64,000 nucleotides of DNA from Eriocheir sinensis (Eukaryota > Arthropoda > Malacostraca > Decapoda > Varunidae), in assembly GCF_024679095.1 (NCBI RefSeq), contig NC_066577.1, positions 4,142,993 through 4,206,992 of the forward strand, given 5' to 3'. Below the pieces are notes generated by a model. The model worked only from the letters and a program-made list of their open reading frames with translations, was not told the DNA's origin and made no database searches. Shown piece after piece: positions 2,222 to 63,696 of the stretch. Position numbers and translations under genes: made by a program. Positions within the stretch are counted from its first letter, which is position 1, and each line of letters opens with the position of its first letter.

Positions 2222-2349
2222 CTTCTAACGATCACCCCTGATGGCAGTACCAAGAAGCCTACTCACGGCCTGTGAAGGAGTCCGAACGCGGCAGGAATTT
2301 CTCACCGGCCAGGTGTAGGAGAGGTGGTGGGGTTCGGCTGACTCTCCGG

Positions 2350-3775
2350 GCGGCAGGGCGGCACACAAGGCCGCCGTTGCACGGGAGACGGGCGGCACAC
2401 ACAAGGCCGCCGGTGGACGGGAGGCGGGCGGCACACACAAGGCCGCCGGTGCACGGGAGGCTGGCGGCACACACAAGGCCGCCGGTGCACGGGAGGCGGG
2501 GGGCACTCACGGGGCCGCCGGTGCGCGGGAGGCGGGCGGCACACACAAGGCCGCCGGTGCACGAGAGGCGGGCGGCACACAAGGCCGCCGGTGCACGGGA
2601 GGCGGGGGCAGACACAAGGCCGCCGGTGCACGGGAGGGGGCGGCACACAAGGCCGCCGGGGCACGGGAGGCGGGCGGCACACACAAGGCCGCCGGTGCAC
2701 GGGAGGCGGGCGGCGCCGCCAACGCCGCCGGGGCACGGGTGGCTGGCGGCACACACAAGGCCGCCGGTGCACGGGGGGCGGGCGGCACACACAAGGCCGC
2801 CGGTGCACTGGAGGCGGGCGGCACACAAGGCCGCCGGTGCACGGGAGGCGGGCGGCACACCCAAGGCCGCCGGTGCACGGGGGCGGGCGGCACGCACAAG
2901 GCCGCCGGTGCACTGGAGGCGGCGGCACACTGGGCCGCCGGTGCACGGGAGGCGGGCGGCACAAGGCCGCCGGTGCACGGGAGGCGGGCGGCATACACAA
3001 GGCCCCCGGTGCACGGGAGGCGGGGGGCACACACGGGGCCGCCGGTGCACGGGAGGCGGGCGGCACACACAAGGCCGCCGGTGCACGGGAGGCTGGCGGC
3101 ACACATGGCCGCCGGTGCACGGGAGGCGGGCGGCACACACAAGGCCGCCGGTGCACGGGAGGCGGGGGGCACACACAAGGCCGCCGGTGCACGGGAGGCG
3201 GCACACAAGGCCGCCGGTGCACGGGAGGCAGGGGCACACAAGGCCGCCGGTGCACGGGAGGCTGGCGGCACACAAGGCCGCCGGTGCACGGGAGGCGGGC
3301 GGCACACACAAGGCCGCCGGTGCACGGGAGGCGGGCGGCACACAAGGCCGCCGGTGCACGGGAGGCGGGCGGCACAAGGCCGCCGGTGCACGGGAGGCGG
3401 GGGGCACACACAAGGCCGCCGGTGCACGGGAGGCTGGCGGCACACACAAGGCCGCCGGTGCACGGGAGGCGGGCGGCACACACAAGGCCGCCGGTGCACG
3501 GGAGGCGGGGGGCACACACAAGGCCGCCGGTGCACGGGAGGCTGGCGGCACACACAAGGCCGCCGGTGCACGGGAGGCGGGCGGCACACACAAGGCCGCC
3601 GGTGCACGGGAGGCGGGCGGCACACACAAGGCCGCCGGTGCACGGGAGGCGGGCGGCACACACAAGGCCGCCGGTGCACGGGAGGCGGGGGGCACACACG
3701 GGGCCGCCGGTGCACGGGAGGCGGGCGGCACACACAAGGCCGCCGGTGCACGGGAGGCGGGCGGCACACACAAGA
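2350..3775. repeat. GC-rich 36-bp minisatellite, about 40 copies
   Basis: The unit contains GGCCGCCGGTGCACGGGAGG followed by GGCGGCACACACAA. Copies are 36 bp, with some of 34 bp or shorter. Several frames on both strands stay open because the unit has no stop triplet. Substitutions and indels fall without regard to codons, so I do not call it coding. It lies about 130 bp upstream of the Gag ATG of the BEL/Pao fragment, where an element leader would be. Confidence 0.95.
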
Positions 3776-8158: not shown

Positions 8159-23713
<15,555 letters not shown>

Positions 23714-33849: not shown

Positions 33850-34555
33850 AGCCATATGAACATATGAACATAAGAACGTAGGAGTCTGCAAGAGGTCGGT
33901 AGGCCTGTACAAGGCAGCTCCTTTGAATCTAAGCTCCCGTGTATCTAACCCCACCTAATATCGCTGTCCATGAATTTATCTAATCTATTTATTAATGTGA
34001 CAATTGTATTGGCAATCAGCACGTGACTGCAAACCTGTTCCACTCATCCACCAACCACTCTGTTAGTAAACCAATTTTGCCTATGTCCCTGTTGAATCTG
34101 AATTTATCCAGTTTAAACCCATTACTTCGTGTCCTACCCGGTTCTCTTACCAACAAAACCTTATAATTATCCCCCTTATTAAAGCCCTTCATCCATTTAT
34201 AAACCTCGATCATGTCTCCACGCACTCTTCGCCTTTCTAGAGAATGCAAGTTTAACTGTTTGAGTCTTTCCTCGTATGGCAAGTTTCTCAACCCCTGAAT
34301 CATCTTCGTCATCCTCCTCTGCACCGATTCTAACATTTTGATATCCAGGTGACCAGAACTGAACCACATAGTCAAGATGAGGTCTAACTAATACTAAATA
34401 TAGTTTGAGGAAGACTTCGGCGCTTCTATTGCTCCTTCTATTGGCTCCTTCAAATAAATCCCAGTACCCTATTTGCTCGATTTCTAGCATGAATGCATTG
34501 TGCCCTTGGACGGAGATCAGGAGCTCACTCAGACCCCTAAATCCCTCTCGCACCC
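33850..34555 (-). mobile_element. CR1-like LINE 3' fragment
   Basis: Encodes RRMTKMIQGLRNLPYEERL and FNRDIGKIG...VDEWNR, the same family as the intron 3 LINE at 9720-11530. The 3' end again is a short TTCATATG/TTCTTATG run (33852-33879). Broken by a frameshift. Confidence 0.88.
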
Positions 34556-34689
34556 AGACCTGCTTATGAAAGTGTCATTAAGCAATAGTTATGTGAGGGG
34601 TTGTTCCTACCTACACTCAGAAAAGGCAGGGATTGTATGCACTTTCAATGCGTCCACTGGATCAGCTGATATATGTTTTGAGTCTAAGG

Positions 34690-34920
34690 GGGGTGGGGAG
34701 ACAGCGGACCAATAGCGCGTTGGCTTCGCGTTCGTGACGTCATGGCGGCTCCTCCCATAATACCTCCATGGTCGGGACTCTATCAAGGGACTCTACGCAC
34801 CGCCTGTGACATCAAGATCAAGAGCAAGATCAGCTGTGGCGGGCGGAGCAGACCTTCCAGCAGGAGCACCTCGCCAGCAGAAGGCGCCGAGGCCCCGCCG
34901 CTCCCTGCTGCTGCCGGGTA
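34690..34920 (+). promoter_or_regulatory. Candidate CpG-rich promoter with CCAAT and CRE
   Basis: CCAAT at 34709, a full CRE TGACGTCA at 34735-34742 followed by ATGGCGGC (YY1-like), then GC-rich sequence ending in CCGG with donor GTAAGC at 34918. This looks like a non-coding first exon, but no downstream exon is recognised, and the block shares an inverted repeat with 32803-32840. Treat as a guess. Confidence 0.3.
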
Positions 34921-35173
34921 AGCTGCTTGCAAAGCCTCTCGGGGAAGTTGCCGGGTTTCCGTGGACTGTTTTTTGCGGTAAATGTGTAGTTGAGCTCCGC
35001 CACCTCCCTCGTGAACCCCGTGGGGAGGCCTTTGGTAGGGGTGGCAGGGGCGAGCCGTGGTGGGGGCCATGTCGCTGCGTTATGAGGGTGGCATGTCGGG
35101 TCCCTTATGTGGCGTGAGCGGGGGTGTTTAAAGGGGGAGAGTTCATGTGGCTTGTTTAGCTCCCTGCCTGCCT

Positions 35174-35203
35174 GTGTGTGTGTGTGTGTGTGTGTGTGCC
35201 TGG

Positions 35204-35234
<31 letters not shown>

Positions 35235-35237
35235 TAG

Positions 35238-35272
<35 letters not shown>

Positions 35273-35442
35273 GGTGGGTGTTGGTGTGGGTGTAGGTGTG
35301 TGTGTGTGTGTGTTGGTGTGGGTGTGTGTGGGTGGGTGTGTGTGTGTTGGTGTGGGTGTAGGTGTGTGTGTGTGTGTGTGTTGGTGTGTGTGGGTGTGTG
35401 TTGGTGTGTGTGGGTGTGGGTGTGGGTGTGTGTGTGGAGAGG
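35174..35442. repeat. GT-rich complex microsatellite
   Basis: GTGTGT runs broken by GGGTGTAGGTGT and TTGGTGTGGGTG motifs. Open frames across it (115-228 codons) are simple-sequence artefacts. Confidence 0.97.
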
Positions 35443-35647
35443 GTGTTGGTGGGGGTTCTCTCACCTGGTGGGCTTCCCAGAACCCGGTAGACACAGGGCC
35501 CAAAAGGAAGCCGCACTCTGCTGATGCGCCAGCCCGACTAGTTCAGTAACCTCCATACATACAAATACATGTGCTATAGACAGAGCTGGAATTGTGCATC
35601 ATGTGCAGCAAAGTAAATAATCAATTAATAATATGTAAATGAACAAA

Positions 35648-38476
35648 CTAGAATGTAAGAAGTCTGTCACCGAGATGAGCAGCAAGGGATGCTTTGAATG
35701 CTGAGAGTGAATTAGCTGAAACAACATGCTGGGGAAGAGAGTTCCACAGCGTAATACCTCCGACGTTGAAGAACCTCTTGCGGATCTCTAATTCAGTTCT
35801 TATGTGTGCAACCTTATACTGACGGCCTCTTGTGGTGCCCAGAGGTGGACTGACAAACATATCCTCGGGGGCAATAGCACAGAAACCGTGAAATATTTGC
35901 CAATACTTTACCACGTCATGTCGTAGCAGCCGACCATGGACAGAGTACAAGTCCAAAGCCTTCAGTCTCTGGGAATAACTTAGATGCTCCATACCTCTAA
36001 TGGTCCTGGTCCAATGTCTCTGCACTGACTCAAGTGAGTTGAGATCAGTAATATATCCCAGATTCCACACATCTGAACAATATTCAAGTAAAGGCTGAAT
36101 GTGCGTCACATACATAGGAACAAGAAAGGAAGCATCGCGGTTAACTGTAGATTTAAGTAGATTTTGAGCCATGCCACCTGCTTTCTGGACGACGTTCTGT
36201 ATGTGCTGGTGAAATTTCAAGGAAGAATTGACATTAACCCCAAGGTCCATTGCAGAATCTTTAACTGGAATAGGAATGCCATTTAGATAATACATACCAG
36301 AGGCCGGTAAACCCGACAAGTTCACGGTCCGCCTTTGGAATTTGACAACTACACATTTATTAATGTTCATGGATAGACCCCAAGACAATGCAACTTTGTA
36401 AAGATTATCAATATCTCTTTGACAAGAAGCCATGTTTTGTGAGCAGTATGCACACAGTTAGTCTCAATTGAAATATACAATTTAAGGTCATCAGCAAAAA
36501 TTTTTGTATGGAAACTAATGTCATGAGTAAGAAGGTTAATATATAGAAGAAATAGAAGTGGACCAAGAACTGAACCCTGGGGCACTCCACTGACCACACC
36601 GCAAGGACGACTCAACTGACGATCGACTACAACATTCATAACCCGAGATTTTAAAAACTCCCTTATCCAGCCCAAAAGCTTGCCTGTAATACCCAATTTC
36701 CTAAGCTTATCTAACAAAATGTCATGACATACAGTGTCGAAGGCCTTAGAAAAGTCAAAAAGAATGAGATCAACATTTTTACCCTGGTCCATGGCACAAG
36801 TAACATCATTGTATGTCCGCAGCAGCTGGTCCTCTGTGGATCTGCCTGGACGAAAACCAAACTGCTCATTACACAAAACGTTATGACTTGTGGCATAATC
36901 AAAAATAAATTTACATAATATACGCTCAAGAGATTTCAGACAGACTGGCGATACTGGTCTATAATTTAAAGGATCATGTCAAATCCCCTTCTTAAAGATT
37001 GGCACAATCAAGGACCTCTTCCATATGGATGGTAGAGTGCATGTGTCCAGAGAAGATCTGAAAATGAGCCATAAAGGGTAAGAAAGTTCATCTTTACAAG
37101 ATTTAAGCAAACAAGGATGGAGCTCGTCTGCTCCCATTGACGACGACACATCGAGATCTGAAAGTACAGCAATGACAGAATCCAATGAGATATCAATGTG
37201 TCCAATGCTCCCATCAAAGACCTGGTGAGGCTCAGGATGATCAGGAATTTCCTGCACATAAACTGAGGAAAATGCCGCAGCGAAAATGTTAGCCATGCCC
37301 TCTGCCTGGTTGATGACATTACCATTGTCTGACATTAGTGGACCAACTCGAGGTTTGCCCACCTTCTTCTGGCGTATATATGAATGAAAAACCTTTGAGT
37401 TGTGTAAAGATTTGTCTACAATTGATGCTCCATACTCCGCCTGCTTTGCTAAGGCAAAATTCCGATACTGGAGGTTAGCCGCCTGAAAAAGACTTAATGC
37501 ATCAGTGGCCTCACTAGAATTCCTTCCTAAACGAGAACGTATTGTCTTGTATTGTATCCACAGCATATGGCGTCTCCTCTTCAAAGCTTGAGGCGGGCGA
37601 ACCTGCCATTTAGGGGAATGAGCACCTGCCTTGATGGCAGAGGAGGGAATGTATCTATCAGTTAAAGGCATCAAAATATTAAGGAAATGTAAAACATCTG
37701 TTCGACATTAAGGTGTAGAAATTCCAAGTCCCAATCAACAACAGACAAGTGGCTACTTATCTGTTGGTATTTACCCTTATGCCAGAGTCTATGACTGCAT
37801 GACATTTGGGATCCCGAAATATCCTGAAAAATGTAACTGCAAAGTGTTGGGCTGTGACTACAATTAGGGAAGGGAGGAAGCACCCGTATCTCACCAACTC
37901 TGTCGCTCTCACTAGTTAGAATAAGGTCTAGTGTGTTGCCAGAAGGGAGAAATGTCGGCTCAGTAACCCACTGAGTAAGCCCAAGAATATTAAAACAATC
38001 ATAGAATTGGCGATCCCTGAATGATAACCCAAATGAAACCAAATCCCTTTCCCAATGAACTGAAGGCAAGTTGAAATCACCCAACAACACTACATCCTTA
38101 CCCAAGCAAAAGTCACAAAGAAAGTTAAGAAGTTGTTCATCATCCCCAAAAGTGTTAGAAGGTGGACGATAAAAGGTAACAATATACAAATCATAATCTG
38201 AAAAGTAGGCCACTACCACATTAGGTCCTTGAATAATTACCTCCGTGAAGCTGAGATACGACCTCAAATACATACAGACCCGTGCTTGTGTACATTACCT
38301 AAAACATCCTTCCTTAACAACACATAATTAGGAATATCAACAAATGAACCAGGGGTAGAAGAAAGCACCCACGATTCACTAATACCCAAAACAGAAACAT
38401 CATGATCCTGCAAAAAAGAATTCAAATAATTAGTTTTATTTATAATTGAATTAACATTAGCATGTGCAATATACAA
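35648..38476 (-). pseudogene. LINE-C ORF2: endonuclease and reverse transcriptase
   Basis: The apurinic-type endonuclease shows HANVNSI, LGISESWVL, LLGDFNLPSVHWERD, NTLDLILTS and a His in the last motif (SHSPTLCSY). Reverse transcriptase shows LIVPIFKKG, NYRPVSPV, NEQFGFRPGRSTEDQLL, FDFSKAFDTVCHDILL, VPQGSVLGPLLFLLYIN and the catalytic FADDLKLY. The C-terminal region has YVTHIQPLLEYCSDVWNLGY and ends DRLLTF with a stop at 35648. This would copy its own RNA at a nicked target, but at least three frameshifts and one stop break it. Confidence 0.9.
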
Positions 38477-38517: not shown

Positions 38518-39260
38518 CTAACGAAGCAAAAAACTAGCCAGGGTCCGTGACTGTGGGGTCTGAGAGCTCCGAGACTCATCAGCAGGTGCTCGCTCTCCAT
38601 TGGCAGCCTCACGCCTCGCTCGCAACTCCTGACGCTGTCTGTAAGTAAGATCTCTATGAATATAAAGTGAAGTGAACCGATCAGACTGCTTCAGCCTGGG
38701 GGATGCTGCCAGTAGGGATTTTTTGTCATCCATATTAGGTACTTTCCCCCTAAAACTGCCTTTCTCCCTACTAATGCAGACTGGGTCCTGCAAACTTATC
38801 TCTTTGTTGATCAGGAAGAGGGAAGCTTCCTTAAACACATTACAAGCAGAAGACACATCAGAGTTTGGAAGTCCCCGAACAACAACAGAGTCCCGTCTGA
38901 TGTCACGTTCCTTACCTCACGAATTTGTTTGCGAATCCTCAAGTCAAGGTCATCCTTGCTTGCAGCTGAGCAGACTGGGTGAGGCAGGGACTGAGCATTA
39001 GGCAAATTAGTACTTGACGTCATCAAGGTCCTAACTGCTGTACAGTAACATCACCATTTCATGTAGTTGTTCGATTGTCTCTGTAAGGTCAGATCCAGCG
39101 CCAGAGGCACGCCTGGAACTCTTATCAGTAGGGTGGTTGATCCTGCATGACAAGCAAACAAAAAGAATCCCTCTGCCCTCCTGTTTAACGATGGTCTCGA
39201 TCACCTTGTCCGACCCATGCACCAATACTTCCATGACCCTTGGTACAGACCCATGCACCA
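38518..39260 (-). pseudogene. LINE-C ORF1 (RNA-binding-type protein)
   Basis: The N-terminal part has KQEGRGILFVCLSCRINH (cysteine pair), then a basic helix LDLRIRKQIREV. The C-terminal part has LYIHRDLTYRQRQELRARRE, a motif usual near the end of arthropod CR1-like ORF1 proteins. Two frameshifts. Its first codons run into the 36-bp array in the phase VHGSVPRVMEVL. Confidence 0.75.
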
Positions 39261-40735
39261 ATACTTCCATGACCCTTGGTACAGACCCATGCACCAATAC
39301 TTCCATGACCCTTGGTACAGACCCATGCACCAATACTTACATGACCCTTGGTACAGACCCATGCACCATTACTTACATGACCCTTGGTACAGACCCATGC
39401 ACCAATACTTACATGACCCTTGGTACAGACCCATGCACCAATACTTACATGACCCTTGGTACAGACCCATGCACCAATACTTCCATGACCCTTGGTACAG
39501 ACCCATGCACCAATACTTCCATGACCCTTGGTACAGACCCATGCACCAATACTTACATGACCCTTGGTACAGACCCATGCACCAATACTTACATGACCCT
39601 TGGTACAGACCCATGCACCAATACTTACATGACCCTTGGTACAGACCCATGCACCAATACTTACATGACCCTTGGTACAGACCCATGCACCAATACTTAC
39701 ATGACCCTTGGTACAGACCCATGCACCATTACTTACATGACCCTTGGTACAGACCCATGCACCAATACTTACATGACCCTTGGTACAGACCCATGCACCA
39801 ATACTTCCATGACCCTTGGTACAGACCCATGCACCAATACTTCCATGACCCTTGGTACAGACCCATGCACCAATACTTCCATGACCCTTGGTACAGACCC
39901 ATGCACCAATACTTACATGACCCTTGGTACAGACCCATGCACCAATACTTCCATGACCTTTGGTACAGACCCATGCACCAATACTTACATGACCCTTGGT
40001 ACAGACCCATGCACCAATACTTCCATGACCCTTGGTACAGACCCATGCACCAATACTTACATGACCCTTGGTACAGACCCATGCACCATTACTTACATGA
40101 CCCTTGGTACAGACCCATGCACCAATACTTATGACCTTGGTACAGACCCATGCACCAATTACATGACCCTTGGTACAGACCCATGCACCAATACTTACAT
40201 GACCCTTGGTACAGACCCATGCACCAATACTTACATGACCCTTGGTACAGACCCATGCACCAATACTTACATGACCCTTGGTACAGACCCATGCACCAAT
40301 ACTTACATGACCCTTGGTACAGACCCATGCACCAATACTTACATGAACCTATGTACAGACCCATGCACCAATACATGACCCTTGGTACAGACCCATGCAC
40401 CAATACTTACATGACCCTTGGTACAGACCCATGCACCAATACTTACATGACCCTTGGTACAGACCCATGCACCAATACTTACATGACCCTTGGTACAGAC
40501 CCATGCACCAATACTTACATGACCCTTGGTACAGACCCATGCACCAATACTTACATGACCCTTGGTACAGACCCATGCACCATTACTTACATGACCCTTG
40601 GTACAGACCCATGCACCAATACTTACATGACCCTTGGTACAGACCCATGCACCAATACTTACATGACCCTTGGTACAGACCCATGCACCAATACTTCCAT
40701 GACCCTTGGTACAGACCCATGCACCCTGGACTGAC
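39210..40735. repeat. 36-bp tandem repeat, about 42 copies
   Basis: Unit: ACAGACCCATGCACCAATAC then TTACATGACCCTTGGT. TTAC/TTCC is the commonest variant. The plus strand stays open for 413 codons because the period is a multiple of three; the minus strand is closed by the TTAC variant. It begins exactly where ORF1 of LINE-C would start and shares VLVHGS with it, so it probably grew from LINE sequence. Decayed unit remnants run on to about 40840. Confidence 0.96.
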
Positions 40736-42153: not shown

Positions 42154-43219
42154 GTGGTGGGCAGGGGAGGCTGCAAGGCCGGGCAGCAGCCTGAGTGGCA
42201 GGACCAGCAGGAACACTGCCACTGCTGTGAGGACCAGAAGAACACAACCACCACTGACAACAACAATACCACCACCACCTTACTACTGGCACCTTCAGCC
42301 ACAAAGGAAAGGGAAAGTTTGAGTGTGACAAGATTTGAGACTGGGAGCAAGTTCAGCAGACACAGCCTTGCACACACTGGTGAGGGAAACCATGAGTGGC
42401 CAGCGTGTGGGGAAAGACTCCCTGGGAAGGATGACCTCAGCAAATACACCCACACACTCTGCTGAAGGACCCCTTGAATGCCAAGACTGTGGCAAAAGGT
42501 TCAGTTGCAAGAGTAAACTCAACAGACACACCCTTACACACACTGGTGAAAGACCTCATGAATGCCAAGAGTGTGACCAAAGTTTCAGTACAAAGAGTTC
42601 CCTCAAGAGACACACCCTTAAACACACTGGTGAAAAACCTCATGAATGCCAAGAGTGTGGCAAAGTGTTCAGTCAGAAGAGTATCCTCAACACACACACC
42701 CTTACACACACTGGTGAAAGGTCTCATGAATGCTAAGAGTGTGGCCAAAGTTTCAGTACAAAGGGTTCCCTCAAGAGACACACTCTTACACACACTGGTG
42801 AAAGACCTCATAAATGTCATGGCTGTGGCAAATGGTTCAGTACAAAGGGTGACCTTAAAAAACACAGCCTTACACACACTGGTGAAAGACCTCATGAATG
42901 TCATGACTGTGGCAAAAGATTCATTAGGAAGCGTAACCTGAACAGACACACCTTTACACACACTGGTGAAAGACCTCATAAATGCCAAGAGTGTGGCCAA
43001 AGGTTTGTTTACCAGAGTGAGCTCAGCAGGCACACCCAGGCACACACTGGTGAGAGACCTAATGAATGCCATGAGTGTGGCAAAAAGTTCACTGATAAGT
43101 TTTCATTGGAGCGTCACATCTTCAGACACTCTGGCCTGAGAGAGTTCAAGTGTGATGTGTGTGGGAAGCACTTCAAGATGAAGGAAGACATTGCCAAACA
43201 CATGAAGACCCACTTCTGA
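42154..43219 (+). pseudogene. C2H2 zinc-finger sequence, copy 1 (disrupted)
   Basis: About nine C2H2 fingers of C-x2-C-x12-H-x3-H form joined by HTGERPHEC linkers, for example CGKRFSCKSKLNRHTLTH, ending with CGKHFKMKEDIAKHMKTH and TGA at 43217. Upstream is a degenerate finger and an Asn/Thr-rich stretch (QKNTTTTDNNNTTTT). The frame is broken by a shift in the ACACAC run near 42460 and by TAA at 42734 within the fourth intact finger; after this the same frame is open to 43219. Arrays of this type normally bind DNA. The upstream region back to about 41890 is about 97% identical, inverted, to 63240-63690. No start exon is identified; a TCTTGCAG acceptor-like site lies near 41917. Confidence 0.88.
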
Positions 43220-43389: not shown

Positions 43390-46300
43390 ATCAGTTGTTT
43401 CAGAAGAGGTTTAATAAATATTTACGACCTGGTTTCCAAATTGCAATGATAATAAAAATGGTAGTGTATGTCCCTAGTTGTAGTTTTACAGGGCCTGGGC
43501 TTAATGCTCGTGTGGTCTTGTCTCCATATCTGTACTTGTCCAGTTTTTCCTTAAAGTTGTGCACACTCTTTGCTGATACTACATCCTCACTTAGTCTGTT
43601 CCAAACTTCTATGTTTCTTTGCGGGAAGCTATATTTCTTTATGTCTCAAGCATCTTCCTTTTCTCAATTTTTTACTGTGTTCTCATGTGTTGCTGGTGTT
43701 TCTTCCTTCTCCTAGTATCTCTATCCTAAATTTCAATCCAAAGCTGGATGTTGCATCTACATCCTCAATGTCATCACTTGCTCTCATGCCCATGACCTTG
43801 ACTCCTCAGAATTTTCCACCATCTGGCTAAGACTTCATTGTCGTTCTATTACTAAATACATCTGTGCTCTTTATCTCTCACCTAACTCTACTAACTATGT
43901 AAAATTCTTTGACTATTTGAACTCTAAAGTGGAGCACATCTTGACTCACTCTCCCTTCTCTGAAATCTCCATCTTGGGAGATTTCAATGTTCACCACCAG
44001 CTTTGGCTTTCATCCTCTTTCACTGACCATCCTGGTGAACAAGCCTACAACTTTGCTCTCCTCATCGACCTAGAGCAGTTGGTTCAGCACCCTACACTTA
44101 TTCCCGACCATCTTGGAGACAGGCCCAACATTCTAGACCTCTTCCTTACCTCTAACCCTTCTGCTTACTCTGTCAAACTGTTCTCTCCGTTGGGCTCCTC
44201 CGATCACAACCTTATTTCTGTATTCTGTCCTATCGCTCCTGTACATCCTCTGGACCCACCGAAGAGGCGATGCTTCTGGCATTTTGCTTCAGCTCGGTGG
44301 GACGACCTGAGGATGTACTTTTCCGATTTCCCGTGGAATGATTACTGCTTCCAGGGTAGAGACCCCTCTGCATGTGCTCAGCGCATCACAGAGGTGATTG
44401 TCTCTGGAATGGAGGCATACATTCCACGTACTTTCTCTACTCCTCATGCTAAAAAGCCTTGGTTTAATCATGCTTGTTCTCGTGCTATTAAAGATAGAGA
44501 GGCAGCTCACTAAAGGTACCAGAGCCTTCGAACTCCTGCTAACCATGATCTTTACATTTCTGCCCAGAATCGTGCCAAATCTATTCTTTGACTTACCAAA
44601 AACTCCTTTATCCATAGCAAATGTCAACACCTTGCTTTCTCTAATTCTTCCAGAGACTTCTGGCACTTAGCCAAAGATATCTCCTCCAATTTCACTTCTT
44701 CCTCTTTCCCGCCTCTTCTTAACCCTGACGGCAGCACTGCCGTCTCATCTATCTCTAAGGCTGAACTCTTCACTCAGACTTTCTGTAACAACTCCACTCT
44801 GGACGATTCTGGGCATATTCCTCCTACTCATCCCCCCCTCTGACTCCTTTATGCCTGTTAAGATTCTTCCTAATGATGTTTTCTATGCCCTCTCTGGCCT
44901 CAACTCTCAGAAGGCTTATGGACCTGATGGAGTGCCTCCTATTGTCCTTAAAAACTGTGCTTCCGTGCTGACACCCTGCCTGGTCAAACTCTTTCGTCTC
45001 TGCCTGTCAACATCTACCTTTCCTTCCTGCTGGAAGTATGCCTTCATACAGCCTGTGCCTAAGAAGGGTGACCTTTCCAATCCCTCATACTACCGTCCTA
45101 TAGCTTTACTTTCCTGTCTATCTAAAGCTTTTGGATCAATCCTTAACCGGAAGATTCAAAAGCACCTTTCCACTTCTAACCTTCTATCTGATTGCCAGTA
45201 TGGGTTCCGGAAGGGGCGTTCTACTGGCAATCTTCTTGCTCTCTTAACTGACTCTTGGTCATCCTCTCTTAGCCGTTTCGGTGAAACTTTCTCTGTTGCG
45301 CTAGACATGTCGAAAGCCTTTGATAGAGTCTGGCACAAGTCTTTGCTTTCTAACTGCCCTCTTTCGGATTCTATCCCTCTCTCTGTTCCTTTATCTCCAG
45401 TTTCCTTTCCAGCCGTTCTTTCTCTGCTGTGGTAGACGGTCACTGCTCTTCCCCTAAACCTATCAACAGAGGCATTCCACAGGGCTCTGTCCTATCACCC
45501 ACTCTCTTCCTGTTATTCATCAATGGTCTTTCCATAACAAACTGTCCTGTCCACTCATATGCTGATGACTCCACTCTGCATTATTCAACTTCTTTCAACA
45601 GAAGACCCTCTCAACGGGAATTACATGACTCCAGGCTGGAGGCTGCAGAACGCTTAACCTCAGACCTTGCTATTATTTCCAATTGTGGTAGAGGGAACCT
45701 TGTGTCCTTCAATGCCTCAAAAACCCAATTTCTCCACCTATTAACTCGACACAATCTTCCAAACACCTATCCCCTATTCTTTGACAACACTCAGCTGTCA
45801 CCTTCTTCAACACTAAACATCCTCGGTCTATCCTTAACTCAAAATCTTAACTGGAAACTTCACTTCTCTCGCTAAATCAACTTCCTCAAGGTTGGGCATC
45901 CTGTACCGTCTCCACAAGTTCTCCCCCGCACAGTTGCTTTCCAAATACGTACAGGTGCCTTGTCCGCCCTCGTATGGAGTATGCATCTCACGTGTGGGGG
46001 GCTCCACTCACACAGCTCTCTTGGACAGAGTGGAGTCTAAGGCTCTTCATCTCATCAGCTCTCCTCCTCTTACTGATAGTCTTCTACCTCTTAATTCCTG
46101 TCGATATTTCCACGCTGACTGCTCTTCTGAACTTGCTAACTGCATGCCTCCCTATACTGTCCAAATCCCATACGCAAGAGTTAACCAGTATCTTCACTTT
46201 TTCATCCCTCACGCTAGTACACTCTGGAACAATCTTCCTTCATCTGTACTTCCTCCTGCCTATGACTTGAACCCTTTCAAGAGGAGGGTATCAGGACACC

Positions 46301-49300
46301 TCTCCTCCCAAAATTGACCTCTCTTTCCGCCACCTCTTTTGATCCTGTTTAGGAGCAGCGAGTTGCGGGCTTTTTTTTTATTATTGTTTCCTTTTTTTTG
46401 TGCCCTTGAGCTCTGTCCTTTGTTATAAAAAAAACCTCCTGTCTATCTACTACTTCCATTTTATTCCACAATTTGGAACTTTGTATTAGGTCTCCCCTTT
46501 CTCTTCTTTGTTCCAGTGTTGGCAGGTCCATTTCCTTTAACCTTTCTTCATATGACACTCCCTCCAGTTCTGGAACCATCTTCGTTGCCATCCTCAGTAT
46601 TCTTTCTATTTTTTCACGTGTTTCTTCTTATGGGGAGACCACACAATTTCCGCACATTCCAACTTTGGTCTAATCATAGTGGTAATCATCTTTTTCGTCA
46701 TATCTTTATCCATGTAGTGGAATGCTATGCCTATATTTCTTACCATTCTATACGTATCTCCGAATATCCTATTTACATGACTGACTGCTGATTATCTTGT
46801 ATTGTCACTCCCAGATCTCTCTTCTTGAACTTTTAATATGTCTCCATCTCCCATTCTATATGTCCATTTTGGTCTCCCTTCACTCTTTCCCATTTCCATT
46901 ACATGACATTTAATCACATTAAACTCCATCTCCCATTTCTTACTCCAGTCCCAAACCTTATTTAGGTCCTCTTGCAGAATTTCAGTCTTTACTGTTTCTT
47001 ATGTGTCTCAGCAGTTTTGCACCGTCTGCAAACAAGCTCATGTAACTATTTACTTTCTCCGGCATATCATTTCATATACTAGGAAAAGTATTGGTGCCAA
47101 TACCAATCCTTGAGGCACTACACTATCTACATTTATCCATTCCGATTTCATGTCCTTTACCACTGTTCTCATTTCTCTTCCCTTTATGTAACTTTCCATC
47201 CAGTGTTCATTTTCCCTTTCAATCCTTCTCTATTTTCCAGTTTCCATAGTAGTTTTGTGTGTGGAACTTTGTCGAAAGCCTTCTTCAAGTCCAAATACAC
47301 GCAGTCTACCCGTCCATCCCTCTCCAGTGTCATGTCCGTCACTCTCGAGTAAAAGCTTAATAAGTTTGTTACACATGAGCGCCCTTGTCTAAAGCCATAC
47401 TGTTTTTCTGTAATTATATTGTGTTCTAGAAATTCTGTCCATTGTTTCTTTATCACTTTCTCGCATATTTTACAAACCACACTGGTCAGTGATACTGGTC
47501 TGTAGTTCAGGGGCTCTTCCTTATTCCCACTTTTATATATAGGGACCACCTCAGCCCTCTGCCATTCCTTTGCTAATTTGATATTGAGCATTTTATGATA
47601 TTATATACCGGTCCAGCCAGCTGATTTCTACAGTCTTTCAAAATAAAACCTGAGACCCCATCCGGTCCTACTGCTTTCCTCTCTTCCAGCTCCTCCATCA
47701 TTTTATATATCTCCTTTAGTTACTGTGACTTCTTCCATATGAACATTTATCTTGTCATCTTGTGGTTCATTGAATTGTGACTCTTTCGTGAAAACTTGCT
47801 GGAACCTCTTGTTTAGCAGCTCAGTCATGTCTTTAGGATCTTCAATTATCTTATTTCCATCTTTCAGTTTTTCTATTGTTTCCCTTGGTTTGACTTTTCC
47901 CTTTATGAATCTATAAAACAGTTCAGGTGGTTCCTTGCACTTTTCGACAATATCCTTTTCACATCCTTTCTCTTTATTCCTCTGATTCTTATTTCTTTTC
48001 AATCTTCATCACGCTTTGTCTCTTTTTTTTCTTTGCATCTGCACATCTTGCATTAAACCAATCCTTTTTCCTTTTCCTTTGGGTTTATATAATGGTAGAT
48101 ATTTCATAACTCCTGCTTCATACGCCTCCATAAAAATATCATACGTTTCCTGCACCTCACTTTTTCTCCTCAACTTTCCCCAGTCTGGCTCTCTTCTACT
48201 TCTTAAGATTTTGTGTCTGCCTGCCCATAGTTTCTCCTGTTTCTTTTATGTGATTCGTCCCCTTCAGTGCCTTCCTCCTCTGTTTCCATCTCTGTTATCT
48301 CGTAATCACTCTTTCCCAGGAGTGCCCACATCTTAATTCACTTAACAAGTGTATTCTCTTGGTCAGCACCAGGTCCAGTCTCGCCGGTTCATCGTCACTC
48401 CTGTATCTTGTGTTCTCCGTCACCCACTGCATCATCAAGTTTTCCAAAGTCAATCTTAAAAATCTTTCCCCCATGCCGTTTCACTACCTCCACTTTCAAA
48501 TATTTCCCAATTTACCTCCTCACAGTTGAAGTCTCCAACTAACAAGACTTTTTTGCTTGCTTTGGGTAACCTACTCAAACTCTGAATGGTATCTTCAGTC
48601 ATGGTTCTTCTTTGTTCAGTGAGTTTGTTCTTGGTGGTACACAGGTTGCTATTATCGTCATCATTTCTCTGTTTTTGTTCTCCGGATTAACACTCACTAT
48701 TTCCGCCTTTCCTTCTCCATGTACGACTGTTTTCACTAATACCTCCTTCCTCGTCATTATCATCACTCCTCCACCACCTTTACTCTTTCTGTCCTTCCTC
48801 CATACATTGTACTTATTATCAAACACTATTTGGATGACCTCATTCAGCTTTGTTTCCGTTAAACATACAATCTTGGGCTCTTTTTTCCTTTAAGTAGTCT
48901 TGTAGTTCTGTTTTTCTAGATATTATCCCGCCTACATTTGTATACATCACACTTGTCACTTATTTGTTTCAGTCTTGTCTAGCTTCTGTTCTCTTTTGTC
49001 TTTTCCCTTAAATTCCGTTTCTTTAGTCGGTCTCCCAGAACTCCAACTTACATTATTTCTCTCTTTTGCCTCTTCCTCTCTTCTTTATTTCTATTTTTCT
49101 TTATATGTATTTCCTTACATTCGTCTATTTCCCTTAGTTTAGTTGTTCTGTACAATATTTCCTCGGTTACCTTCTGTGATTTTAATCTTAACTGGCCTTG
49201 TTTTACCTTCTATGTAAGGGCCCATCCTAACAATCTCTTCCACCTCCTCCTCAAGGTTTTGTATTTCTTTGTCATTTAAGTTCTTCAGTAAGTCCTTCAC

Positions 49301-56699: not shown

Positions 56700-57790
56700 T
56701 GCTGGCCCCCACAAGACAGCTGACAGTTGTATGCACCTTTGGGGCAGGCAGGGAGTGTTGCCCCTCACAAGACAGGCTGACAGTTGTATGCACCTTTGGG
56801 GCAGGCAGGGAGTGTTGCCCCTCACAAGACAGGCTGACAGTTGTATGCACCTTTGGGGCAGGCAGGGCGGGAGGGTGGGAGTGTTGCCCCTCACAAGACA
56901 GGCTGACAGTTGTATGCACCTTTGGGGCAGGCAGGGAGGGAGGGAGTGTTGCCCCCACAAGACAGGCTGACAGTTGTCAGCACCTTTGGGGCAGCAGGGA
57001 GGAGGGAGGGAGTGTTGCCCCCCACAAGACAGGCTGACAGTTGTCAGCACCTTTGGGGCAGGGAGGGAGGGAGGGAGTGTTGCCCTCCACAAGACAGGCT
57101 GACAGTTGTATGCACCTTTGGGGCAGGCAGGGAGGGAGGGAGGGAGTGTTGCCACCCACAAGAAAGGCAGACAGTTGTCAGCACCTTTGGGGCAGGGAGG
57201 GAGGGAGGTGTTGCCCTCCACAAGACAGGCTGACAGTTGTATGCACCTTTGGGGCAGGCAGGGAGTGTTGCCCCTCACAAGACAGGCTGACAGTTGTATG
57301 CACCTTTGGGGCAGGCAGGGAAGGAGGGAGGGAGTGTTGCCCCCCACAAGACAGGCTGACAGTTGTATGCACCTTTGGGGCAGGGAGGGAGGGAGGGAGT
57401 GTTGCCCCCCACAAGACAGGCTGACAGTTGTATGCATCTTTGGGGCCGGCAGGGAGGGAGGGAGGGGAGTGTTGCCCTCCACAAGACAGGCTGACTGTTG
57501 TATGCACCTTTGGGGCAGGCAGGGAGTGTTGCCCCCCACAAGACAGGCTGACAGTTGTATGCACCTTTGGGGCAGGCAGGGAGGGAGGGAGGGAGTGTTG
57601 CCCCCCACAAGACAGGCTGACAGTTGTATGCACCTTTGGGGCAGGGAGGGAGGGAGGGAGGGAGTGTTGCCCTCCACAAGACAGGCTGACAGTTGTCAGC
57701 ACCTTTGGGGCAGGGAGGGAGGGAGGGAGGGAGTGTTGCCCCTCACAAGACAGGTTGACAGTTCTCAGCATCTTTGGGGCAGGAAGGCTG
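56700..57790. repeat. 57-66-bp minisatellite, about 18 copies
   Basis: Unit: AAGACAGGCTGACAGTTGTA, TGCACCTTTGGGGCAGG, a variable GGGA run and GTGTTGCCCC. Unit length varies with the number of GGGA steps. Long frames on both strands are artefacts of the repeat. Confidence 0.95.
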
Positions 57791-57821
57791 GGAGGGAGGG
57801 AGGGAGGGAGGGAAGGAGAGT

Positions 57822-57892: not shown

Positions 57893-58797
57893 TTCAACTC
57901 TTGCATAAGGGATTTGGACAGCACAGGGATGAAGGAATGAAGATGCTGCTTAACTCTTGTATAAGGGATTTGGACAGCACAGGGATGAAGGAATGAAGAT
58001 GCTGCTTAACTCTTGCATAAGGGATTTGGACAGCACAGGGATGAAGGAATGAAGATGCTGGTTAACTCTTGCATAAGGGATTTGGACAGCACAGGGATGA
58101 AGGAATGAAGATGCTGGTTAACTCTTGTATAAGGGATTTGGACAGCACAGGGATGAAGGAATGAAGATGCTGGTTAACTCTTGCATAAGGGATTTGGACA
58201 GCACAGTGATGAAGGAATGAAGATGCTGGTTAACTCTTGCATAAGGGATTTGGACAGCACAGGGATGAAGGAATGAAGATGCTGGTTAACTCTTGCATAA
58301 GGGATTTGGGCAGCACAGGGATGAAGGAATGAAGATGCTGGTTAACTCTTGCATAAGGGATTTGGACAGTGTAGGGATGAAGGAATGAAGATGCTGGTTA
58401 ACTCTTGCATAAGGGATTTGGACAGCACAGGGATGAAGGAATGAAGATGCTGCTTAACTCTTGCATAAGGGATTTGGACAGTGTAAGGATGAAGGAATGA
58501 AGATGCTGGTTAACTCTTGCATAAGGGATTTGGACAGCACAGGGATGAAGGAATGAAGATGCTGGTTAACTCTTGCATAAGGGATTTGGACAGCACAGGG
58601 ATGAAGGAATGAAGATGCTGGTTAACTCTTGCATAAGGGATTTGGACAGCACAGGGATGAAGGAATGAAGATGCTGGTTAACTCTTGCATAAGGGATTTG
58701 GACAGCACAGGGATGAAGGAATGAAGATGCTTAACTCTTGCATAAGGGATTTGGACAGCACAGGGATGAAGGAATGAAGATGCTGGTTAACTACTCA
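57893..58797. repeat. 56-bp tandem repeat made of LINE-A coding sequence, about 16 copies
   Basis: The reverse complement of one unit (CTGTCCAAATCCCTTATGCA, AGAGTTAACCAGCATCTTCA, TTCCTTCATCCCTGTG) matches LINE-A at 46157-46213, where the sequence codes for the YARVNQYLHF block. Copies are near identical; one is shortened near 58725. Confidence 0.93.
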
Positions 58798-59063: not shown

Positions 59064-60274
59064 GGTTTACAGTCGAAGTGCCCCACTGCCGATGCGCCCC
59101 AACTTTCGGGGCACATCGACTCGTGACTGAGTCCAGGCGCCCCGGGGTGAACCATGGCGCCCCAACTATATAAATATTCATTTTACGGGTGGGTTGTAAA
59201 CTCTCAAATCCCATGTTAAATTACCTATGTTATAAGTATATCTCCTCCCTTACTTACGGGTCGATTTCTTTCACTTAAAAAGCATCATAATCAGGAAGGA
59301 CGGAATATTAACGTTTGCCATCGGTAAGTTTTCTACAATAGTAAAAATATATTTTTAAAGTTTGATGAAACAATAAAAAACAATTGACATATAAATTTGG
59401 TAATTATTGAGAATCACTACACAAAGTTGCTCTCACGGCATTACTAGCCTTTCCAAGCCATCGCACGCTGTTGTGTTAGTCTAGTTTTACCGGCGGATCA
59501 AACATGTGCTGCGTCTACAAGTGATGATAGGAAGCAACAGTTTTGGCGGCGGTGGCGGCAGCCATTGGGAGGCGAGCAGTGTTGCCAACGATCCAACGCT
59601 TGGTTAGCGATGAGCCCACGCATGTGAGACCAGCGCGTGGTTATTTTTTTATATTTTTTTTAGAACACGCACCTTTACCCAAAGGGTTTTGTGAAGGTTT
59701 GGGCCGGGTATAGTATTAGGTAAAGGTGCGTGTTCTAAAAAAAATAACCATGCATGGTGGACCAGGTCTCACATGCATACCATCGCTAACTTAGCGCACC
59801 ATCGCTAATCGGATCGTTGGCAACACTGCTCAACTCCCAGTGTCCGCCGCCGCCACCAAAACAAATGTATGCATATGCCTTTTCACGACCTACCACCATC
59901 GCTAACCACCCTAAAACAGGTGGCAGTATTTGTCCGGCACTTTTACTAATGTATTACATGTATGCAAAGGGTTTTGTGAAGGTTTGGATGAAAATAGACC
60001 AAAATTACGGCGCTGGAGTTATACTGAACCTTTACCACTTTTCTTTAAGTTTTTACGCCTTCATATTATGGTTAAGGGACATGTATTTCGTCCCTTAAGT
60101 ACAATATGGAGGCGTGATATCGTATTTTGGAGGCGCGTAGTGATTCTCAATAATTACCTAAATATTTATATAGTTGGGGCGCCACGGTTCACCCCGGGGC
60201 GCCCCGACTCAGTCACGAGTCAGTGCGCCCCAAAAGTTGGGGCGCATTGACTTGGGGCACTTCGACCTGCTACC
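59064..60274. mobile_element. 1.2-kb palindromic MITE with 8-bp target duplication
   Basis: Termini share GTCGAAGTGCCCC and then about 110 bp of inverted repeat rich in GGCGCCCC. Flanks TTTGGATG and TTTGAATG (59056-59063, 60275-60282) form an 8-bp duplication with one change. The centre near 59695 folds on GAACACGCACCTTTACC. The unbroken LINE at 48820-48850 shows the empty site. Confidence 0.82.
59176..59388. mobile_element. Fragment of the 12683-type element nested in the palindrome
   Basis: Matches 12688-12890 (GGTTGTAAA, AATCCCATGTTAAATT, AAAAAGCAT, AATCAGGAAGGA). ATATAAAT flanks it on both sides (59168-59175, 59389-59396). It interrupts the left arm only. Confidence 0.65.
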
Positions 60275-61102
60275 TTTGAATGACCTCATTTAGTTTAGTT
60301 TCCATTACTTGTTGGCTGCTGCACTGTGCCGGGGCAAGGTGACAGTTGTCACCACTCTGGCTCGGGGCAGACGGCACTGTTCACTGTGGTGCTGCTTGTT
60401 GGTGCATCTCTCAGCAGTCAGCCACAACATGGTGCCAGTCCTCTCCAGGTGGTGCTGATGACTGGTTCCCCGTCACTGAAGTCCCACACAGCAGCACAAC
60501 ACAGCACCTCAGAAGTGGGTCTTCATGTGCCGGGCAATGTCTGACTTTGTTTTGAAGTGCTTCCCACACACATCACACTTGAACTCTCTCAGGCCAGAGT
60601 GTCTGAAGATGTGACACTCCAATGCAAACTTCTCTCTGAACCTTTGTCCACATTCCAGACACTCATGAGGCCTTTCACCAGTGTGTGTAAGGGTGTGTTT
60701 CTTGAGGTTGTCCTTTGTAATGAACCTTTGGCCACACTCTTGACATTCATGAGGTCTTTCACCAGTGTGTGTAAGGGTGTGTCTCTTGAGGGAACTCTTT
60801 GTATTGAAACTTTGGTCACACTCTTGGCATTCATGAGGTCTTTCACCAGTGTGTGTAAGGGTGTGTGTGTTGAGGTTATCCTTTGTAATAAACCTTTAGC
60901 CACACTCTTGGCATTCATGAAGTCTTTCACCAGTGTGTGTGTAAGGGTGTGTCTCTTGAGGGAACTCTTTGTATTGAAACTTTGGTCACACTCTTGGCAT
61001 TCATGAGGTCTTTCACCAGTGTGTGTGTAAGGGTGTGTGTGTTGAGGTTATTCTTGTAACTGAACCTTTTGCCACACTCTTGGCATTCATGAGGTCTTTC
61101 AC

Positions 61103-62262
61103 TTTTTCTGTTTTAGTTTACTTTTTCAGTCTTGATTATGGGTGATGGGGCACTCTGCCAAGTGCCTAACAATCACCCACTTTTTAGAGGCTGCAACCGA
61201 GGGTTCTTTTTAGGATGGTAGTGGTTCCCTTAAGGGCAATTGTTTGGATTTCTGTTGCCCTCGGGTTTCCTGGGATTTTAGCTAGATGGTCCTTGAAGTT
61301 CTTTTTCAGTAGGCCTGTTGCTCCGGCAATGACTGGCACAATCGAGATGTTCTTCAATTTCCAGTTTCTTTTCATATCATGCATCAGGCCTTGATATTTG
61401 GTGACCTTTTCCCTTTCAGCTCTGTTTAGCCCGCTGTCATGTGGGATACTGACCTCAACTATCATAGCCACTTTTTCTTTCCTGTTCCACACAACCAGGT
61501 CTGGTTTCACTGCAGCATTATCTAGATAGGTAGCTGTTGGAATTACCTGGTCATAGCAGATGGTGTGCGTCTCATTTCCGGTGATTTTCTCTGGCTGATG
61601 TTCCCACACTTTGCTAGAGCACTTGATGTTCAGGCTGCTGCAGATGGTCCAGTGTAGGTATTTGCACACTTCATCGTGCCTGACTGTGTAGTAGCCATCG
61701 GCTAGCAGAGTCTGGCAGCTGCAGATCAGGTGGCTCACACTTTCAATTTCAGTGTGGCAGAACCTGCGTTTGTTGTTGTTACTGAGACCAGCCATTTTTT
61801 TTAAAGCGTTGGTCATTATGGCCTGGTCTTGTGCTGCCATTATCAGCCTCTCCTGATCGTAGTGGAGGGTTCCTTTGATGAGCCAGTTCAGAGAGCTCTC
61901 CTTGTCAATGTAGTCTTTGGAGAGCTCTTGCAGGAAAAACTTGGCACGTTGGTGTTCTGCCCACTCAGTTAAGTTGGTGTTCTGGAACTTCCTGGTGAAT
62001 TTTGAACAGCTCTTTCTGGCCATTTTGGTGGCTGGTGTGTTTTCTGTTTCCTGCTCATCTACTATACAATCCTGTCCAAAATGCTGGGTCAGCTTAGTAA
62101 TTGAGGTGTTTTTGCTGGCTTTGTTGGTGTGGTGTTCCTGGACCCTGGCAATGTTTGGACTTAGGGAGCTTCTGAGGTATTGGCCGATGCTCACCATAAT
62201 GGCTCTGTGTTGGTAGTTAACTTCAGACAGTCCTAGGCCTTCCTCTCTTCTTGGCATATACA
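61103..62262 (-). mobile_element. LINE 3' end with restriction-like endonuclease, insertion 1
   Basis: A 357-codon frame (62257 to stop 61184) begins PRREEGLGLSEVNYQHRAI and has GTLHYDQERLIMAAQDQA, a CHTEIESVSHLICSC zinc-knuckle-like block, a RHDEVCKYLHW block and KPDLVVWNRKEKVAMIVEVS with the PD...(E/D) spacing of the PD-(D/E)XK nuclease of R2/NeSL/HERO-type LINEs, then KYQGLMHDMKRNW and VPVIAGATGLLKKNF. Reverse transcriptase is absent (5' truncation). A short A-rich 3' end (reverse complement of TTTTTCTGTTTTAG) abuts the target. GTCTTTCAC is duplicated at 61094-61102 and 62263-62271. Confidence 0.82.
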
Positions 62263-62355
62263 GTCTTTCACCAGTGTGTGTAAGGGTGTGTGTGTTGAGG
62301 TGATTCTTTGTAATGAACCTTTGGCCACACTCTTGGCATTCATGAGGTCTTTCAC

Positions 62356-62760
62356 TTCACTTTGGTTTAATATATTATTAACTTTGTATCGGGGGTGCAA
62401 TGGGCCCCAGCCTGGGGTCTATAGTTGCTCCCTTAATATACTTCATTGGCCTTGTATCCGAGGGCTCTTTTTAGTATGCTCACTGTTCCCTTGATGGCAG
62501 CAATCTGTACCTGGTGCATACTGGGGCAGCTTGGTATTGCCTGGAGGTACCGTTTCAGGTTTTTCTTGATGAACCCTGTTGCCCCCACCACCACAGGTAT
62601 TATTTCTATTTCCTTCAGTGCCCACGTACTCTTCAGGTCATTCTTTAGGTCTTGGTATTTAGTTATTTTGTGCCTCTCAGCTCTATTGAGGCCAAAGTCA
62701 TTGGGCACTGTTACATCTATAATCTTTGCTGTTTTTTCTTCTTTGTTCCACATCACGATG
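62356..62760 (-). mobile_element. LINE 3' end with restriction-like endonuclease, insertion 2
   Basis: Encodes DIVMWNKEEKTAKIIDVTVP, LNRAERHKITKYQDLKNDL and VVVGATGFIKKNLKRYL, ending at a stop at 62433. Roughly 55% identical in protein to insertion 1, so a separate subfamily. The 3' end abuts GTCTTTCAC at 62347-62355, the same base as insertion 1. The 5' side resumes at TCACCAGTG (62761), a 4-bp TCAC duplication. Confidence 0.82.
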
Positions 62761-63416
62761 TCACCAGTGTGTGTAAGGGTGTGTGTGTTGAGGTGATTCT
62801 TTGTAATGAACCTTTGGCCACACTCTTGGCAGTCATGAGGTCTTTCACCAGTGTGTGTAAGGGTGTGTGTGTTGAGGTGATTCTTTGAAATAAACCTTTG
62901 GTCACACTCTTGGCATTCATGAGGTCCTTCACCAGTGTGTGTAAGGGTGTGTGTGTTGAGTTTATTCTTGTAACTGAACCTTTTGCCACACTCTTGGCAT
63001 TCATGAGGTCCTTCACCAGTGTATGTAAGGGTGTGTCTGTTGAGTTTACTTTTGCAACTGAACCTTTTGCCAGTCTTGGCATTCAAGGACTCCTTCAGCA
63101 GTGTGTGGGTGTATTTGCTGAGGTCATCCTTCCCAGGGAGTCTTTCCGCACACGCTGGCCACTCATGGTTTCCCTCACCAGTGTGTGCAAGGCTGTGTCT
63201 GCTGAACTTGCTCCCAGTCTCAAATCTTGTCACACTCAAACTTTCCCTTTCCTTTGTGGCTGAAGGTGCCAGCAGTAAGGTGGTGGTGGTATTGTTGTTG
63301 TTGTTGTTGTTCTCAGTGGTGGTTGTGTTCTTCTGATCCTCACAGCAGTGGCAGTGTTCCTGCTGGTCCCGCCACTCAGGCTGCTGCCCGGCCTTGCAGC
63401 CTCCCCTGCCCACCAC
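62433..63416 (-). other. Uninterrupted zinc-finger/nuclease fusion frame
   Basis: A stop-free frame of 327 codons (no ATG before the fusion; first codon here is GTG). It has an Asn/Thr linker, degenerate fingers, three canonical C2H2 fingers (CQECGKRFSYKNKLNTHTLT and two like it), then, at THTGD, the endonuclease-like domain of insertion 2. Both acidic positions of the PD...D pattern remain, although the Pro is lost at the junction. Expression would need an upstream exon. It may be a chance product of the insertion. Confidence 0.6.
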
Positions 63417-63696
63417 TCCTGGGGTGGGGGTCTTGCAGGAACCTCAGGGAAGCTGCAGCGGGCGGCAAGGTTCCCCCGACGCCACACTCAGGGACCAAGC
63501 AGCAGGCGAGGCGAGGGATGCACCAAGGAGTCCTGAGGTCAGCGGCAGCGTGGACACAGCGAGTGCTGATTACAGCGTCCGCCTCAGACCCTCACTTGAG
63601 CAGCTGTCTCCTGGCGCTGTGCTCCTCCCAGTATGGCCAACACCACATCCTGGGCTGCAAGAGATGGGGTGTTAATGCCACGCCCTCTTCTGTCTA

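Follow-up and report, generated by a model that had tools for sequence, protein, structure and literature searches.

How do two different LINE fragments come to end at one and the same base of a zinc-finger gene, within the repeated sequence that encodes the linker between its fingers? The question is raised by the window, that is, the whole stretch of 64,000 nucleotides of Eriocheir sinensis DNA that was analyzed (G000:C69:4142993-4206992; the genome measures 1.77 Gb in 2158 contigs). As judged from sequence comparisons, the two fragments are very probably 5′-truncated copies of LINEs that belong to the R2 group, broadly defined, and that insert site-specifically, with the C2H2 linker ACTG/GTGAAAGACC as their target. 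The features on which the question turns are listed below with their coordinates in the window, strand, description, and basis.

60509..63443, minus strand: C2H2 zinc-finger (ZF) gene region holding both inserts (open reading frames, tandem repeats, Pfam zf-C2H2 and zf-H2C2_2)
61094..61102, minus strand: target duplication of insert 1 at its 3′ junction, GTGAAAGAC on the finger strand (junction comparison)
61103..62262, minus strand: insert 1, the 3′ part of a family-1 LINE, 5′-truncated, with CCHC knuckle, endonuclease region, and 3′ UTR (junctions; relatives at up to 88% identity; profile match to R2)
62263..62271, minus strand: target duplication of insert 1 at its 5′ junction (junction comparison)
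62352..62355, minus strand: target duplication of insert 2 at its 3′ junction, GTGA on the finger strand (junction comparison)
62356..62760, minus strand: insert 2, the 3′ part of a family-2 LINE, 5′-truncated (junctions; three more genomic copies at 94.5-96.6% identity)
62761..62764, minus strand: target duplication of insert 2 at its 5′ junction (junction comparison)
42546..43069, plus strand: linkers of a second ZF array, seven matches at up to two mismatches, none adjoined by an insert (linker search; Pfam for part)

The region at 60509..63443 is built of finger units of 84 bp each with TGERPHEC-type linkers, and this array is broken twice. On the finger-coding strand, insert 1 ends in ACTAAAACAGAAAAA and insert 2 in TTAAACCAAAGTGAA, and each is followed directly by GTGAAAGACCTCATGAATGC, so that both 3′ ends stop exactly before GTGAAAGACC inside one C2H2 ZF array. 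The 5′ side of insert 1 reads CACACTGGTGAAAGAC on the same strand, and the 9 bp GTGAAAGAC is duplicated, appearing as GTCTTTCAC at 61094-61102 and again at 62263-62271, while insert 2 is flanked by TCAC at 62352-62355 and 62761-62764. Reading of both inserts bore out the shared 3′ junction in the linker that the preliminary description had reported, together with its duplications of 9 bp for insert 1 and 4 bp (TCAC) for insert 2. Written out, the linker target stretch is ACTGGTGAAAGACCTCATG. The linker 20-mer GTGAAAGACCTCATGAATGC has 17 matches in the window at up to three mismatches, five of them exact, with 0.00 expected from dinucleotide shuffles.

Several other features of the neighborhood were recorded. 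The frame of the finger upstream stays open into insert 1, so that finger and LINE protein together form a 390-aa frame at 61184-62356. Just below the ZF array, at 59092-60247, lies a large imperfect inverted repeat, perhaps a foldback element, with 87-nt arms that are 92% complementary and 982 nt apart and with smaller inverted repeats nested within it. Long tandem-repeat arrays are found at 2347-3774 (period 36), 39212-40725 (36), 56803-57802 (69), and 57896-58792 (56).

Are the two fragments descendants of a single insertion? In the endonuclease region, 56 of 103 residues are identical between the proteins of the two inserts, and the reverse transcriptases (RTs) of one longer copy per family share 54% identity over 372 aa, in agreement with the protein difference of about 45% first estimated. 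At the DNA level, the inserts can be aligned in pieces only (69% over 142 bp and 79% over 42 bp). By these alignments, the two inserts belong to two families and are not copies of one insertion.

If the linker is a true target, other copies of each family should adjoin it as well. Family 1 was sought in the whole genome with the 3′-UTR motif GGCACTTGGCAGAGTGCCCCATCACCC at up to two mismatches, a search that is blind to the flanks. It gave 37 matches, 33 of them exact, compared to 0 for the reversed control; copies with more than two motif mismatches are left out of these 37, as they are out of the four found for family 2. An automatic junction score, which required the canonical linker to be matched in at least 12 of 20 bases, was passed by 28 of the 37 family-1 3′ ends. 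When the score was applied with the same offset freedom to places drawn at random within the window's first 42 kb, 0.94% passed, and chance was rejected as the cause of the linker junctions on this null rate per copy.

The nine family-1 flanks that failed the automatic score were read by eye, and at five of them (L046, L051, L054, L055, and L058) the script was found to have misplaced the junction. L046 has an exact linker at its 3′ junction, and the other four show GTGAAAAA leading into finger codons with slight departures from the canonical linker. At L065 and L066, the junction reads GTGAAAG and is followed by a second truncated family-1 copy that itself ends at the linker. The copy at C1:22338158 (L047 and L050) has the 3′ flank GTGGCGAAAAATTC, which is also seen in L051's relic finger array, but with the linker absent; this arrangement reads as the probable result of a later deletion. 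A single clear off-target copy of family 1, at C7:14185523 (L056 and L079), has a satellite with GGTGTAGGTTATYTCAT-like units on its 3′ side and satellite on its 5′ side also. The unit of the satellite around this copy contains GGTGTAGG. By reading, the 37 family-1 3′ ends comprise 35 at the linker, one at a ZF relic, and one at a satellite. The linker specificity of family 1 is strong but not absolute, since 1 of 37 copies is clearly off-target.

Family 2 gave the same picture on a smaller scale. Its 3′-UTR motif, again at up to two mismatches, has four matches in the genome (the window, C1827, C24, and C61), and all four copies adjoin the linker. The C1827 copy is 3.7 kb long, extending from about 624345, within a linker, to about 628076; its frames are broken, and its two RT pieces fall below the curated cut-off in their matches to Pfam RVT_1. 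At C61, the DNA 5′ of the family-2 copy is not recognizably ZF. Insertions of both families occur in one ZF array at C61 (L060 and L085, in neighboring linkers) as well as in the window. The survey of the 3′ flanks of all copies that the preliminary description had proposed places 35 of 37 family-1 copies (28 automatically) and four of four family-2 copies at the linker. That description had named unrelated flanks at other copies as evidence against a linker target; 39 of the 41 copies adjoin the linker, and the exceptions are the satellite copy and the ZF relic that lacks a linker. Among these 41 flanks, none was read as rDNA. All 35 family-1 and four family-2 linker insertions are in the sense orientation relative to the fingers, as follows from the direction of the linker.

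A test in the opposite direction started from the linker itself and covered every genomic GTGAAAGACCTCATGAATG preceded by a base other than G (n=37), a design blind to inserts whose last base is G and to linkers that have changed. Of these sites, 22 belong to intact ZF arrays in which that preceding base shows a point change, 13 lie after family 1, and two lie after family 2; no insert other than those of families 1 and 2 was found before the 37 sites. The junctions also bear on the suggestion that the elements inserted at random and survived only in multicopy ZF arrays, which may tolerate insertions. Survival cannot pick one base of the finger unit, and the window also contains, away from ZF DNA, frames that by eye resemble the RTs of other LINE kinds (10144-11444, 19695-21723, 34016-38294, and 44671-46317). 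Random insertion with selective survival is, on this evidence, scarcely credible.

A different objection is that one or two founder insertions were spread by duplication and gene conversion between ZF arrays. ZF arrays duplicate readily, and many of the 37 family-1 copies are duplicates of each other as judged by similar flanks or truncation. The duplicate sets of family 1 are C68 (three times), C112/C275, C6/C57, C70/C1355/C1481, C70/C1355, C58/C176, C295/C1473, C32/C1328, and C1048/C1314, and several of them (C68, C6/C57, and C70/C1355) are plain duplicates that share the same truncation and flank. However, family 1 includes at least 15 groups that are bordered by ZF DNA at both junctions and differ in their 5′ truncation points, with element lengths of about 86, 90, 131, 176, 191, 211, 241, 296, 478, 503, 570, 1160, 1900, 2070, and 2120 bp. 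Copying of one insertion cannot explain the family-1 copies in view of these differing truncations. The duplications, moreover, match the local linker. They range from GTGA to GTGAAAGAC, that is, from 4 to 9 bp, and in L062/L067, where the linker has GGG in place of GTG, the variant GGGAAAGA stands on both sides of the element, as a true duplication requires. No clear duplication is present at L061, L081, and L089, and L074 has non-ZF DNA on its 5′ side. Finally, the same base is used by two families at about 55% protein identity. Spread from founder insertions is, therefore, highly improbable, and the early statement that the inserts are not one insertion copied was upheld both by the differing truncations in different arrays and by the divergence of the families.

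A linker that has been used once may also serve again. In C1314, a first copy has its 5′ edge in a finger array; after it come GTGAAAG, a second family-1 copy of about 500 bp, and then GTGAAAGAAATCATGAGTGTGAAG (linker); C1048 has the same 3′ arrangement (loci L065, L066, and L087-L089). Because the two loci resemble duplicates, this tandem re-insertion was counted as one event. As read from the order LINE, GTGAAAG, LINE, linker, a used linker site can be hit again. The second copies at C1048 and C1314 have more than two motif mismatches and fall outside the 37, which indicates that the motif search misses older copies.

These elements behave as site-specific LINEs do, with most copies at one site and with independent insertions (at least 15 truncations in family 1). 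The proposal of a LINE lineage that uses the repeated ZF linker as a dispersed multicopy target gains support from the flanks of 35 of 37 and four of four copies and from the varied truncations.

What kind of LINE is it? The RT of L040, a longer family-1 copy, was compared with PDB sequences, and all matches with E <0.5 are R2 proteins (9nl2, 9.9e-25; 9nl3, 1.6e-24; 9dou, 2.7e-24; 8gh6, 1.3e-13; 8ibw, 2.6e-12); Pfam RVT_1 is matched at 2.1e-23. Profile A1, built from 42 sequences (insert 1 plus 41 relatives), can be aligned with R2 (9nl3) over the CCHC knuckle and the KPD-bearing endonuclease region, with a whole-sequence E-value of 3.3e-13 and an i-Evalue of 0.0019 for the endonuclease, and its columns P252 and D253 are at least 90% conserved. 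The C-terminal endonuclease region is presumably of the restriction-like PD-(D/E)xK type. The protein model of insert 1 has a mean pLDDT of 87.4, and its matches to Pfam are limited to sub-threshold zf-RVT and VRR_NUC. No C2H2 motif fused to the LINE protein was found in 70 relatives of insert 1. In a near-start stretch of 180 aa, taken from a single long and decayed family-2 copy, no Pfam family was recognized, including N-terminal zinc finger, Myb, and apurinic-type endonuclease. The best reading of these comparisons is that the element is a LINE of the broadly defined R2 group, with an R2-like RT and a C-terminal endonuclease region. The classification of the RT that the preliminary description had called for, along with recovery of full-length copies, could accordingly be given as R2-like, and no copy among those examined is intact and full-length.

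The RNA ends of the two families differ, and one further feature belongs here.

61103..61190, minus strand: family-1 3′ UTR together with the last part of the coding region, predicted to form a stable RNA hairpin (-24.8 kcal/mol, z -4.04)

The family-2 3′ end folds no better than shuffles (z -0.33). These ends bear on the proposal that the choice of site depends on a short homology of the RNA end to the linker, or on ZF chromatin being open, and not on sequence recognition by the endonuclease. The 3′ ends of family 2 (CCAAAGTGAA) are similar to the linker start GTGAAAG, as homology would have it, and family 1 ends in A-rich letters. The family-1 end is without GTG, yet it stops at the same base, and open chromatin cannot fix one base within an 84-bp unit. 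Site choice by homology or chromatin is, therefore, improbable, if less so than spread from founders.

With recognition by the endonuclease as the preferred reading, the junctions suggest the following course of insertion. First, the encoded putative endonuclease would nick the linker on its bottom strand, after GGTCTTTCAC, which would fix the 3′ junction. Second, the RNA of the element, which has a hairpin and a short A-rich tail at its end, would be reverse transcribed from the nicked 3′ end. Third, a second nick in the top strand, 4 to 9 bases away, would give rise to the short target duplication, and incomplete copying would leave truncated 5′ ends. Target-primed reverse transcription as in R2 fits this course.

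Compared to R2 of the 28S rDNA, the elements are similar in several respects: the RT resembles R2 chains (E 9.9e-25 to 2.6e-12), the CCHC knuckle and endonuclease region can be aligned, the 3′ junction is fixed, and 5′ truncation is frequent. They differ in target, which is 28S rDNA for R2 and a protein-coding ZF linker for the elements described here. The N-terminal zinc finger and Myb domains were not recognized in the one long, decayed family-2 copy. The elements appear to work like R2 but, lacking the 28S target, fall outside R2 proper.

Other LINEs of related kinds have been described. The part of PMC13188248 that was available mentions R2-homologous proteins outside the rDNA; they share with the present elements a location away from the canonical 28S site, but in that part they are assigned to other rDNA sites or to no site, whereas here a single coding motif is used. 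The term "zinc finger gene" has no match in the same part of that article. NeSL, R5, and Utopia, as covered in the available text of PMC4640811, and HERO are likewise target-specific RLE LINEs with some copies at look-alike sites; Utopia is described there with one to three N-terminal zinc fingers and one C-terminal zinc finger plus the RLE. In contrast to the linker, the targets of NeSL, R5, and Utopia given in that text are spliced-leader, U2 snRNA, tRNA, and 28S genes. HERO is mostly non-specific or found at microsatellites. Across the accessible portions of PMC4640811, PMC5035012, PMC7650587, PMC12503042, and PMC13188248, the LINE targets named are rRNA, tRNA, and snRNA genes, spliced-leader exons, microsatellites, telomeric repeats, and transposons, or no fixed site. 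A LINE targeting ZF coding DNA was not found described in the titles and abstract openings of the articles that searches of the open-licence literature brought up.

If LINEs do target the coding DNA of a gene family, this would add a new class of LINE target and tie LINE biology to the evolution of ZF genes, and a natural R2-like protein with another target would serve for comparison with R2. Speculatively, the sense position may let the element be transcribed along with the ZF gene. A broader proposal, which can be put forward only tentatively and has less than an even chance of being right, is that an old LINE lineage specialized on an exon motif of a protein-coding family, the C2H2 linker of many ZF genes, and remained faithful to it even as protein identity fell to about 55%, the sense position serving its transcription with ZF genes. 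Some of the ZF arrays that were hit are relics. On this proposal, and should the ZF genes of this host act as silencers of transposons as well, the element would break and shape the very repertoire that would control it.
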